This document shows, one piece after another, positions 28,596 through 32,748 of a stretch of DNA of 64,000 bases. Origin of the DNA: Enhydrobacter aerosaccus (GTDB lineage: Bacteria; Pseudomonadota; Alphaproteobacteria; Reyranellales; Reyranellaceae); contig NZ_FUWJ01000002.1 of the NCBI RefSeq assembly GCF_900167455.1, positions 496,305-560,304 on the forward strand, in the 5' to 3' direction. The translations under genes were made by a program, and so were the position numbers. Below the pieces are notes generated by a model, which saw only the letters and a list, made by a program, of their open reading frames with translations, searched no databases and had not been told where the DNA came from. Within the stretch, counting starts at the first letter, position 1. Each line of letters starts with the position of its first letter.

Positions 28596-29267
28596 TTACT
28601 TGTTCAGAAGCTTGCTGAAGGCGGCGTCGAGCTCATCGAGCGAACGCGCGCCTGTGAACTTCTCGCCGTTGATGAACAGGGTCGGCGTCGAATTCACCCC
28701 GACCTGCTCACCCGTGCGATAGGAATTGATCACGCCGTCGGCCACGGCCGGATCGGCAAGGCAGGCCTTGACCTCCTTGTCGCCCATGCCGGCGATGCGG
28801 AAGGACTTGGCCAGTTCGGCCAGCGGATCGGAGGCGGTGGCCCAGTTGCCCTGGCCGCGGAAGATCATGTCGACCACGGCATAGTACTTGTCGTTGCCGG
28901 CGCACTGCGCCAGCTGCGCGGCCCGCGCCGCGGTCTCGTCGAGCGGGAAGTCGCGATAGATGAGCTTCACCTTGCCGGTGTCGATCCACTTCTTCTTGAT
29001 CTCCGGCAGCTCCACCGTGTTGAAGTGGGCGCAGTGCGGGCAGGTGAACGAGGCGTATTCGATCAACGTGATCGGCGCCTTGGGATCGCCCTCGACATGG
29101 TCGTTGGGCTGGACCTGCAGAATCGCGGCCTTGTCGGGCGCAGCCGTCGTCGCTGCCGCCGGAACCGGCGCCGGGCCGGTCGTGGCGGGGCGGGTCCCGA
29201 AGTAGACGCCGGCCGCGATGGCAGCCACCGCCACGACGCCGCCGGCGATGATCAAGATATTCCGCAT
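28596..29267 (-). CDS. DsbA-family thiol-disulfide oxidoreductase, membrane-anchored
   Basis: This 223-residue protein has an N-terminal membrane anchor or signal (MRNILIIAGGVVAVAAIAAG), an Ala/Pro/Thr-rich linker and a DsbA-like thioredoxin domain. The redox motif is CPHC (residues 76-79) in YASFTCPHCAHFN, and the cis-proline lies in VNSTPTLFINGEKF. The ATG at 29267 has a good GAGAGGAAG site; a longer frame to 29318 lacks support. It forms or isomerises disulfides in the periplasm. It is a paralogue of the DsbA half of the adjacent upstream fusion gene. Confidence 0.9.
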   Translation of the reverse strand: MRNILIIAGGVVAVAAIAAGVYFGTRPATTGPAPVPAAATTAAPDKAAILQVQPNDHVEGDPKAPITLIEYASFTCPHCAHFNTVELPEIKKKWIDTGKVKLIYRDFPLDETAARAAQLAQCAGNDKYYAVVDMIFRGQGNWATASDPLAELAKSFRIAGMGDKEVKACLADPAVADGVINSYRTGEQVGVNSTPTLFINGEKFTGARSLDELDAAFSKLLNK

Positions 29268-29322: not shown

Positions 29323-30441
29323 TTACCGGCCTATTTCATCCAGAATCTTGCCGATGGCGTCGGTGCTGCCGGGATTCCCACAATTCTGGCCATTGATGAA
29401 CAGGGTCGGGGTCTGGTTGACCCCGAGCGTCTGGCCGGACTGCACGTCGTCGATGATTTTGTCCAAAAGCTGGTCGTTGGCGAGACAATCGGCCGCCGCC
29501 AGGCCCTGCGCGGACAGAATCTTCACCATCTCGCCCTCGGGATCCTGCGCCGTCAGCCAGTCGACCTGGGAACGGAACAGCGCGTGGATGGTGTCGAAGA
29601 ACCTGGCCGTTCCGCCGCATTCGGCGAGCTGGCTGGCATGCGTGGCGATCGAATCGGAGGGAAAGTGCCGGTAGACGAAGCGGACCCGGCCGCTCTCGAC
29701 GAACTGCTTGCGAATACCCGGAAGCACGGCCATGGCGAAATTGGCACAGTGCGGACAGGTCAGCGAGAAATAGTCGATGATCACGTTCGGCGCGTCGGCT
29801 CTGCCCAGGACATGATCGGTCGGCCGAACGACCAGCAGCTTTTCCTGATCGTCCGTCCACTGAGCCAGCACGGTCTGGGCCCGCGATGTCCGCATGAACA
29901 GCATCGCCCCCAGAGCGCCCAGCATCAGGCTGCGGCGGCCGCGGGCGATGTGCGTGCCGAGCCGCGCCAGCGCCGCCTTGAGGTCGGGATCCTCGACCTT
30001 GGCCACACGTTCGGCGAGGCGCGCCGCGAGCTGCGGATCGACCGGCGCCACCGGCGGAGCCAGCGTTGGCGCTGTCACGCCGCCCTGGACCAGCCGGATC
30101 TCGTCGATGAAGCGATGACCGAAATAGGCATTCACCCGTTCGACGAGCTGATTGGCCCGGTGCTGGATCTCGAGCGATGCGGCGCCCTCGACGCGCAGTC
30201 GCAGGACCTTGCCGCCTCCGGCCTGCACTGCCCGGCCACCGCGGCCGGCCAGCAGGGCATCGGGACGCGACACGCGGGCAATCTCGGCGCCGACGATGGC
30301 GGACCACTCGGTCTTCAGACGGGCCAGCGGCGCTCCACTGGCTTTCGCGCCCTTCTTCCCCTTGGGAGACAGGCCCGAGGTGAGCCGCTGGGCGACACCG
30401 CCGATGGCGCGAAAGCCGTTTTCCCGCATGGACCCTTTCAA
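29323..30441 (-). CDS. Fusion protein: DciA-like DUF721 domain plus DsbA-like thioredoxin domain
   Basis: One continuous 372-residue reading frame joins two usually separate proteins. Residues about 10-165 match DUF721/DciA, a cytosolic helicase loader (LKTEWSAIVGAEIARVSRPD, QHRANQLVERVNAYFG, VEDPDLKAALARLG). Residues 168-190 read GRRSLMLGALGAMLFMRTSR, a twin-arginine-like hydrophobic stretch. Residues about 195-372 are a DsbA domain with CPHC at 229-232 and VNQTPTLFINGQ. The start is TTG at 30441, supported by AAGGAG six bases upstream; an ATG four codons later lacks a site. No internal start precedes the Arg-Arg pair. In related genomes the two are separate neighbouring genes. Confidence 0.85.
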   Translation of the reverse strand: MKGSMRENGFRAIGGVAQRLTSGLSPKGKKGAKASGAPLARLKTEWSAIVGAEIARVSRPDALLAGRGGRAVQAGGGKVLRLRVEGAASLEIQHRANQLVERVNAYFGHRFIDEIRLVQGGVTAPTLAPPVAPVDPQLAARLAERVAKVEDPDLKAALARLGTHIARGRRSLMLGALGAMLFMRTSRAQTVLAQWTDDQEKLLVVRPTDHVLGRADAPNVIIDYFSLTCPHCANFAMAVLPGIRKQFVESGRVRFVYRHFPSDSIATHASQLAECGGTARFFDTIHALFRSQVDWLTAQDPEGEMVKILSAQGLAAADCLANDQLLDKIIDDVQSGQTLGVNQTPTLFINGQNCGNPGSTDAIGKILDEIGR

Positions 30442-30475
30442 ACTCCGCTCCTTATGCTAGGGCACGCCTCCTTAC

Positions 30476-31543
30476 ATGACCATGACCCACGCCGCGCGCC
30501 TGCCCGCCAAACTACTCGCCTGGTACGACCGTCACCGACGCACCCTCCCGTGGCGCGCAATGCCCGGAAAACGCACGCCGCCTTATCTCGTTTGGCTGTC
30601 CGAGATCATGCTGCAGCAAACCACGGTCGCCACGGTCGGGGATTACTTTCACCGCTTTGTGAAGCGCTGGCCGACCGTGGAGGCCCTGGCCGCGGCGCCT
30701 CTCGACGACATCCTGTCGGCCTGGGCCGGCCTTGGTTACTACGCACGGGCCCGTAACCTGCATGCCTGCGCACGCACCGTGATCGAACGTCACGGCGGCC
30801 AGTTCCCGGACAGCGAGGCCGACTTGCTGGCCCTGCCCGGCATCGGCCGCTACACGGCCGCCGCCATCCGCGCCATCGCCTTCGACCAACCGGCGTCCGC
30901 TGTCGACGGCAACGTCGAACGCGTGATCGCCCGCCTGTACGCGATCGAGACGCCCTTGCCGGACGCCAAAGCCGAGATTCATGCCCGCGCGGCAGAGCTC
31001 GTGCCGCAGCAGCGCGCTGGGGACTATGCCCAGGCGATGATGGATCTCGGCGCCACGGTGTGCACGCCGCGCAGCCCAAGCTGCGTCATCTGTCCGCTGA
31101 TGGATGGATGCGAGGCGCGCCGGCGCGGCATTGCCGAGGAACTGCCGCGCCGCGCCCCAAAGGCGGAGAAGCCGACGCGCCGGGGCGTCGCCTTCGTGCT
31201 GTCACGCAAGGACGGCGCGGTGCTGCTGCGCAAGCGGCCGCCGCGCGGACTACTGGGCGGCATGGACGAAATACCGTCGAGCGACTGGCGCGAGGGCGAA
31301 CTCCTGATGGCCGAGGCGCTCAAGCAGGCACCAGTGCCGGCGAACTGGAAGATGCTCGACGGCGGGGTGCGCCACACTTTCACACACTTCCACTTGGAGC
31401 TCGCCGTCGCGCATGCCATCGCGACCACGGCCGGCCTGGCCAAGCTGGCGCCCGGCAGCGCCTGGTGCACGATCGACCAGCTCGACGAGCGCGCCTTGCC
31501 GACCGTCATGCGCAAGGTGATCGCGCATGCGATGAGCCGCTAA
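30476..31543 (+). CDS. mutY: A/G-specific adenine DNA glycosylase
   Basis: MutY (355 residues) removes adenine mispaired with 8-oxoguanine. The catalytic Glu is in SEIMLQQTTVATV. The helix-hairpin-helix reads LPGIGRYTAAAI, with the catalytic Asp in SAVDGNVERVIARL. The iron-sulfur cysteines are in CTPRSPSCVICPLMDGC. A NUDIX-like C-terminal domain (about 230-355) reads the 8-oxoG. An alternative ATG lies two codons in. It is divergent from the DciA-DsbA gene with 34 bases between. Confidence 0.96.
   Translation: MTMTHAARLPAKLLAWYDRHRRTLPWRAMPGKRTPPYLVWLSEIMLQQTTVATVGDYFHRFVKRWPTVEALAAAPLDDILSAWAGLGYYARARNLHACARTVIERHGGQFPDSEADLLALPGIGRYTAAAIRAIAFDQPASAVDGNVERVIARLYAIETPLPDAKAEIHARAAELVPQQRAGDYAQAMMDLGATVCTPRSPSCVICPLMDGCEARRRGIAEELPRRAPKAEKPTRRGVAFVLSRKDGAVLLRKRPPRGLLGGMDEIPSSDWREGELLMAEALKQAPVPANWKMLDGGVRHTFTHFHLELAVAHAIATTAGLAKLAPGSAWCTIDQLDERALPTVMRKVIAHAMSR

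Positions 31544-31564: not shown

Positions 31565-32748
<1,184 letters not shown>

Follow-up and report, generated by a model that had tools for sequence, protein, structure and literature searches.

A dciA-dsbA gene fusion across the genus Reyranella, with a Tat-like signal at the junction of its two domains

Introduction

Why should a protein that loads the replicative helicase in the cytosol share one reading frame with a disulfide enzyme of the periplasm? The question is raised by a gene in the genome of Enhydrobacter aerosaccus (Reyranellaceae; assembly GCF_900167455.1, contig NZ_FUWJ01000002.1), within a stretch of 64,000 nucleotides (positions 496,305 to 560,304) referred to here as the window. 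Among bacterial helicase loaders DciA is the ancestral one, and it has proved essential wherever this was tested; Reyranella, the genus concerned, is a soil and water bacterium.

Results

A single frame encodes DciA and DsbA

The fused frame, its domains and its paralogous neighbor are located as follows.

29323–30441, minus strand: fused dciA-dsbA open reading frame, 372 amino acids, TTG start, TAA stop; open in 59 of 65 genomes of the genus
30448–30453, minus strand: Shine-Dalgarno-like AAGGAG, with 6 nt between its end and the TTG start
30091–30354, minus strand: DciA domain (PF05258/DUF721), residues 30–117, from Pfam and the predicted fold match
29335–29823, minus strand: DsbA domain, alpha-DsbA1-like, residues 207–369
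28596–29267, minus strand: free dsbA2, a tandem paralogue whose hydrophobic N-terminal anchor lacks a twin arginine

The frame is flanked by mutY (30476–31543, plus strand) and by the free dsbA (28596–29267, minus strand), which is followed by smc. An AAGGAG-like sequence also precedes the aligned TTG in most relatives. Judged by its motifs and domain matches, the open reading frame is a complete DciA helicase loader followed by an internal Tat signal-like segment and a complete alphaproteobacterial DsbA. The original prediction had described an uninterrupted 372-codon frame at 29323–30441 without stating its strand, and such a frame is present on the minus strand. The DUF721 and DsbA sequences that it had read in one frame are both recovered by Pfam (residues 30–117 and 207–369), CPHC and the Arg-Arg pair lie where it had placed them (229–232 and 169–170), the well-spaced AAGGAG that it had assigned to the TTG ends 6 nt 5′ of that codon, and its twin-arginine-like hydrophobic segment corresponds to an R169-R170 pair that is invariant in 57/57 fusions and is followed by a weakly hydrophobic core. 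On the far side of mutY, an open reading frame on the minus strand of the window (31565–32689) contains the motifs of a site-specific DNA methyltransferase (DPPYN).

The fusion is fixed across the genus

A whole-genome search recovered the uninterrupted fused frame in 59 of 65 Reyranella genomes, single-contig assemblies included, and the fusions of the other genomes are 55–74% identical to the window's protein. The remaining six genomes, all fragmented assemblies, contain no detectable DciA. One sister-genus genome (G086) is also fused, at 52% identity. A sequencing error or lost stop, which the original prediction had named as a possible cause of the open frame, is ruled out by the 59 genus genomes with their single-contig assemblies, and the stop at about residues 168–172 that relatives with two separate genes would carry is absent in every relative of the genus. 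PF05258 matches once per genome, always within the fused frame, in all 59 fusion-bearing Reyranella genomes; no second, free DciA was found by this search in any of them.

Outside this group, no fusion was found in the three remaining genera of the family whose locus could be read, in the related order member G025 or in 66 named non-Reyranella loci. Wherever the sequence covered in these includes both dciA and dsbA, the two are separate; the separate genes are usually adjacent in the other alphaproteobacterial loci examined. No independent fusion occurs among the matches listed for a 385-genome sample of the class. Four genomes (G032, G350, G131 and G133) appear joined in the match tables, but stops separate their two genes.

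Fifty-seven fusions were aligned (56 from Reyranella and that of G086), three further genus members being cut by contig ends. The stretch from L161 to D209 takes 10 different lengths among them, all in frame, which is what translation across the junction would predict. Because the 59 Reyranella genomes keep the frame despite many in-frame length changes, the junction is open far beyond chance, and we strongly infer that the chain is translated through it. We conclude that dciA and dsbA are fused at the gene level and that this arrangement is fixed across the genus Reyranella. A search of the open-access literature found no paper that names DciA together with DsbA, and no earlier description of such a fusion.

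The DciA part keeps a putative helicase-binding helix

The fused protein matches the Pfam DciA family with E = 1.8e-9 (38.1 bits against a curated cut-off of 24). The DciA part was modeled alone, as the DsbA domain filled the PDB match list of the full-length model; its top Foldseek matches are 8a3v (VcDciA of V. cholerae in complex with DnaB) and 7ykm (the DUF721 domain of D. radiodurans DciA), the latter also matched by sequence profile (E 1.8e-7). The AlphaFold model has a DciA fold with a helix over residues 151–166 and no membrane helix before residue 170. This helix contains three leucines.

29944–29991, minus strand: DciA C-terminal helix, residues 151–166, with L154, L158 and L161, each invariant in 57/57

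In Caulobacter, DciA is essential and binds DnaB through the C-terminal residues L163, L167 and L170 (PMC9825169). The three leucines of the fusions have the same 4+3 spacing in 57/57 sequences and would be their equivalents, as matched by spacing and motif and not by full alignment. In most fusions this leucine motif lies 7–8 residues before the twin arginine. R102, invariant in the 57 aligned fusions, is by motif and spacing the likely equivalent of Caulobacter R106, whose function is described in PMC12547741. The fused DciA would be the sole DciA of the cell and would load DnaB through its conserved C-terminal helix.

The DsbA part is a complete alpha-DsbA

Residues 207–369 match Pfam Thioredoxin_4/DsbA with E = 7.9e-34, and in the full-length AlphaFold model this domain superimposes on Wolbachia alpha-DsbA1 (3f4t) with Z 21.7 and rmsd 1.9 over 176 residues; it has the thioredoxin fold with its helical insert. 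The residues expected of such an enzyme are conserved.

29746–29757, minus strand: active site CPHC, residues 229–232, both cysteines in 57/57
29407–29409, minus strand: cis-proline P345 (TPT), 57/57
29617–29619, minus strand: C275, first cysteine of a likely second (regulatory) disulfide, 54/57
29485–29487, minus strand: C319, second cysteine of the same likely pair, 56/57

A second disulfide of alpha-DsbAs has been described (PMC3839904), and C275 and C319 are likely to form the corresponding non-catalytic bond, the pairing being drawn by analogy with that work. Two of the most divergent fusions, L068 (G075) and L070 (G086), have CWSC/CAGC in place of CPHC. Other DsbA genes were also encountered. 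An extra stand-alone DsbA of CDHC type (L079–L082) occurs in a few Reyranella and sister genomes, and the two of these in the tree form a clade of their own. At another place in the genome of the window, a DsbB-like gene is the direct neighbor of a DsbA-like one (G000:C4:204444-205438, L083 being the DsbA part).

The fused DsbA groups with its free paralogue

Within the family, the DsbA tree joins the fused copies and those of free dsbA2 in one group, with support of 100/97 for the joint group and 98/95 for the family. Since fused and free copies stand together within the family, the tree identifies the fused DsbA as a tandem duplicate of the downstream free dsbA, specific to this family. The branching order inside the joint group is not fixed by the tree, and one long-branched outside sequence, likely an artefact, falls within it. 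The gene order mutY-dciA-trx-smc is ancient in the alphaproteobacteria (PMC5109545), so the fusion may simply have joined neighboring genes, and the functional link between replication loading and envelope redox that the original prediction had suggested is still a conjecture. The common ancestor of Reyranella and one sister genus would have acquired the fusion when a tandem duplicate of the adjacent dsbA was linked in frame to the 3′ end of dciA. In the sister genus g21 (G090; L077, ∼2060–2100, reversed strand) dciA ends in ...ILGRR, and a single TAG separates it from a dsbA that continues in frame, so that loss of this one stop would suffice for a fusion. The DciA tail ends in RR in some sister genera, and such a basic tail may be a partial source of the twin arginine or neighboring basic residues of the fusions.

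A Tat-like signal lies between the domains

The segment that joins the two domains has three parts.

29932–29937, minus strand: twin arginine R169-R170, invariant in 57/57, with variable flanks
29881–29931, minus strand: hydrophobic and c-region of the Tat-like signal, residues 171–187, from hydropathy; predicted helix over 170–201
29875–29880, minus strand: A188-Q189, predicted signal peptidase site with the cut after A188, invariant in 57/57

RR and AQ are islands of zero entropy among the 57 sequences, and the residues beside them vary, with up to 2.8 bits of entropy. The best 15-residue hydropathy of the segment has a median of 1.70 and a maximum of 2.05. The lowest value among the N-terminal anchors of free dsbA2 is 2.49, above every fusion, and none of these anchors has a twin arginine; hydrophobicity below that of all the dsbA2 anchors is as expected of Tat signals. 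Thus the 57 fusions contain the twin arginine, the weakly hydrophobic core and the predicted signal peptidase site of Tat substrates. Position −3 of the predicted site is L, P, A, V, S or T, and is proline in 11/57. Proline at −3 is poor for signal peptidase I. TatC was found in 62 and DsbB in 61 of the 65 Reyranella genomes. In other alphaproteobacteria, an RR followed by a hydrophobic stretch is present in 39 of 70 separate DsbAs encoded at or near dciA.

The signal of the fusion is internal and not at the protein N-terminus, its twin arginine occupying residues 169–170 of 372. In the papers examined (PMC5449189, PMC7317946), the internal Tat signals come after transmembrane helices, and no case of a folded soluble domain ahead of such a signal was found there.

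Export and cleavage is the favored route

The reading that we favor, and rate a little above even, is that a single polypeptide is made from which Tat exports DsbA, signal peptidase cuts after A188 and DciA stays inside. The DciA part would remain in the cytosol and load DnaB through its C-terminal helix while the internal RR-hydrophobic-AQ segment inserts N-in/C-out. The folded DsbA domain would cross the membrane by the Tat route, signal peptidase I would cut after A188 to free a periplasmic DsbA, and the freed enzyme could be reoxidized by the genome's DsbB, while DciA would retain a short piece of the signal peptide at its C-terminal end. Four observations argue against this route: the proline at −3 in 11/57 fusions, the membrane helices that precede the internal Tat signals of the papers examined (PMC5449189), the internal start codons with weak Shine-Dalgarno cores in 22/57, and the possibility that the basic residues come partly from the DciA tail.

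The segment could instead act as an uncleaved membrane anchor, holding DciA at the inner face and DsbA at the outer as in Rieske proteins, which we consider unlikely. The AlphaFold model has a long continuous helix over residues 170–201, Rieske proteins are known to keep uncleaved Tat anchors (PMC7317946), and the free dsbA2 is itself of an anchored type. However, an anchor would not need AQ, which is invariant in 57/57 beside varying neighbors, and next to the dsbA2 anchors the core is short and of low hydrophobicity. It is mainly on the invariance of AQ that cleavage is preferred to a permanent tether. The original prediction had offered a membrane-spanning fusion or post-translational cleavage as alternatives; its logic of DciA inside and DsbA outside is retained, and the invariant AQ at the predicted site tips the choice toward cleavage. 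That the whole fusion anchors the sole helicase loader in the inner membrane, tied to a periplasmic disulfide enzyme, seems to us distinctly unlikely.

It is more doubtful still that, alongside reading of the long frame, a start codon inside the end of dciA also, or mainly, gives rise to DsbA. The original prediction had seen no start codon before the Arg-Arg pair; this holds for the nearest 22 codons, but in-frame GTG codons lie 23, 38 and 47 codons before it. An ATG, GTG or TTG occurs 2–54 codons before RR in all 57 genomes, with a weak Shine-Dalgarno core near a start in 22/57, a rate that nevertheless falls within the range of control stretches (0–25 of 57). The best start-codon column between residues 120 and 168 is filled in only 33/57, and synonymous sites at the junction show no conservation (z about −2.5 to 0), those of the N-terminus being mildly conserved. 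A conserved internal start or ribosome-binding site within residues 120–168 is thus not supported in the 57 aligned fusions, and an internal start may be used genome by genome, as extra initiation. Finally, a wholly cytosolic fusion, in which the hydrophobic segment is a linker and DsbA a thioredoxin-like domain acting on replication proteins, agrees with the intact thioredoxin fold on the same chain but is highly improbable given RR, AQ and a hydrophobic core in 57/57 and the second cysteine pair of exported alpha-DsbAs, which is nearly always kept.

Discussion

The only DciA gene of Reyranella makes up the first half of the frame for an enzyme that appears to be exported, and in most relatives fewer than 10 residues separate the DnaB-binding leucines from the twin arginine. 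If the favored export and cleavage is correct, an essential cytosolic protein would, surprisingly, be the signal peptidase leftover of an export event. The fusion also raises the question whether Tat can accept a signal that lies internally, after a soluble domain that has folded. A tether would be no less surprising, with helicase loading membrane-tethered across a whole genus; were the entire fusion anchored, envelope redox or the Tat/DsbB machinery could influence where or when DnaB is loaded.

Each part of the protein resembles a known system. Caulobacter DciA has the DUF721 domain, the C-terminal helix with three DnaB-binding leucines and the mutY-dciA-trx-smc order (PMC9825169, PMC5109545), but is 179 residues long and ends soon after the helix, whereas the fused protein adds an export signal and DsbA. 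Wolbachia alpha-DsbA1 shares the fold (Z 21.7), CxxC, the cis-proline and the second cysteine pair, and differs in being a separate protein without a preceding cytosolic domain. The neighboring dciA and Tat-type dsbA of other alphaproteobacteria are the same genes in the same order, often in frame with one stop between them, yet they have their own start and stop codons, and the 66 named non-Reyranella loci are without a fusion. Dual Sec-Tat proteins (actinobacterial Rieske, Sco3746) likewise have an internal twin arginine with a segment of weak hydrophobicity after it, and their C-terminal domain is exported (PMC5449189), export being predicted for the fusion; in those proteins transmembrane helices precede the twin arginine, whereas in the fusion a soluble DNA-replication domain does.
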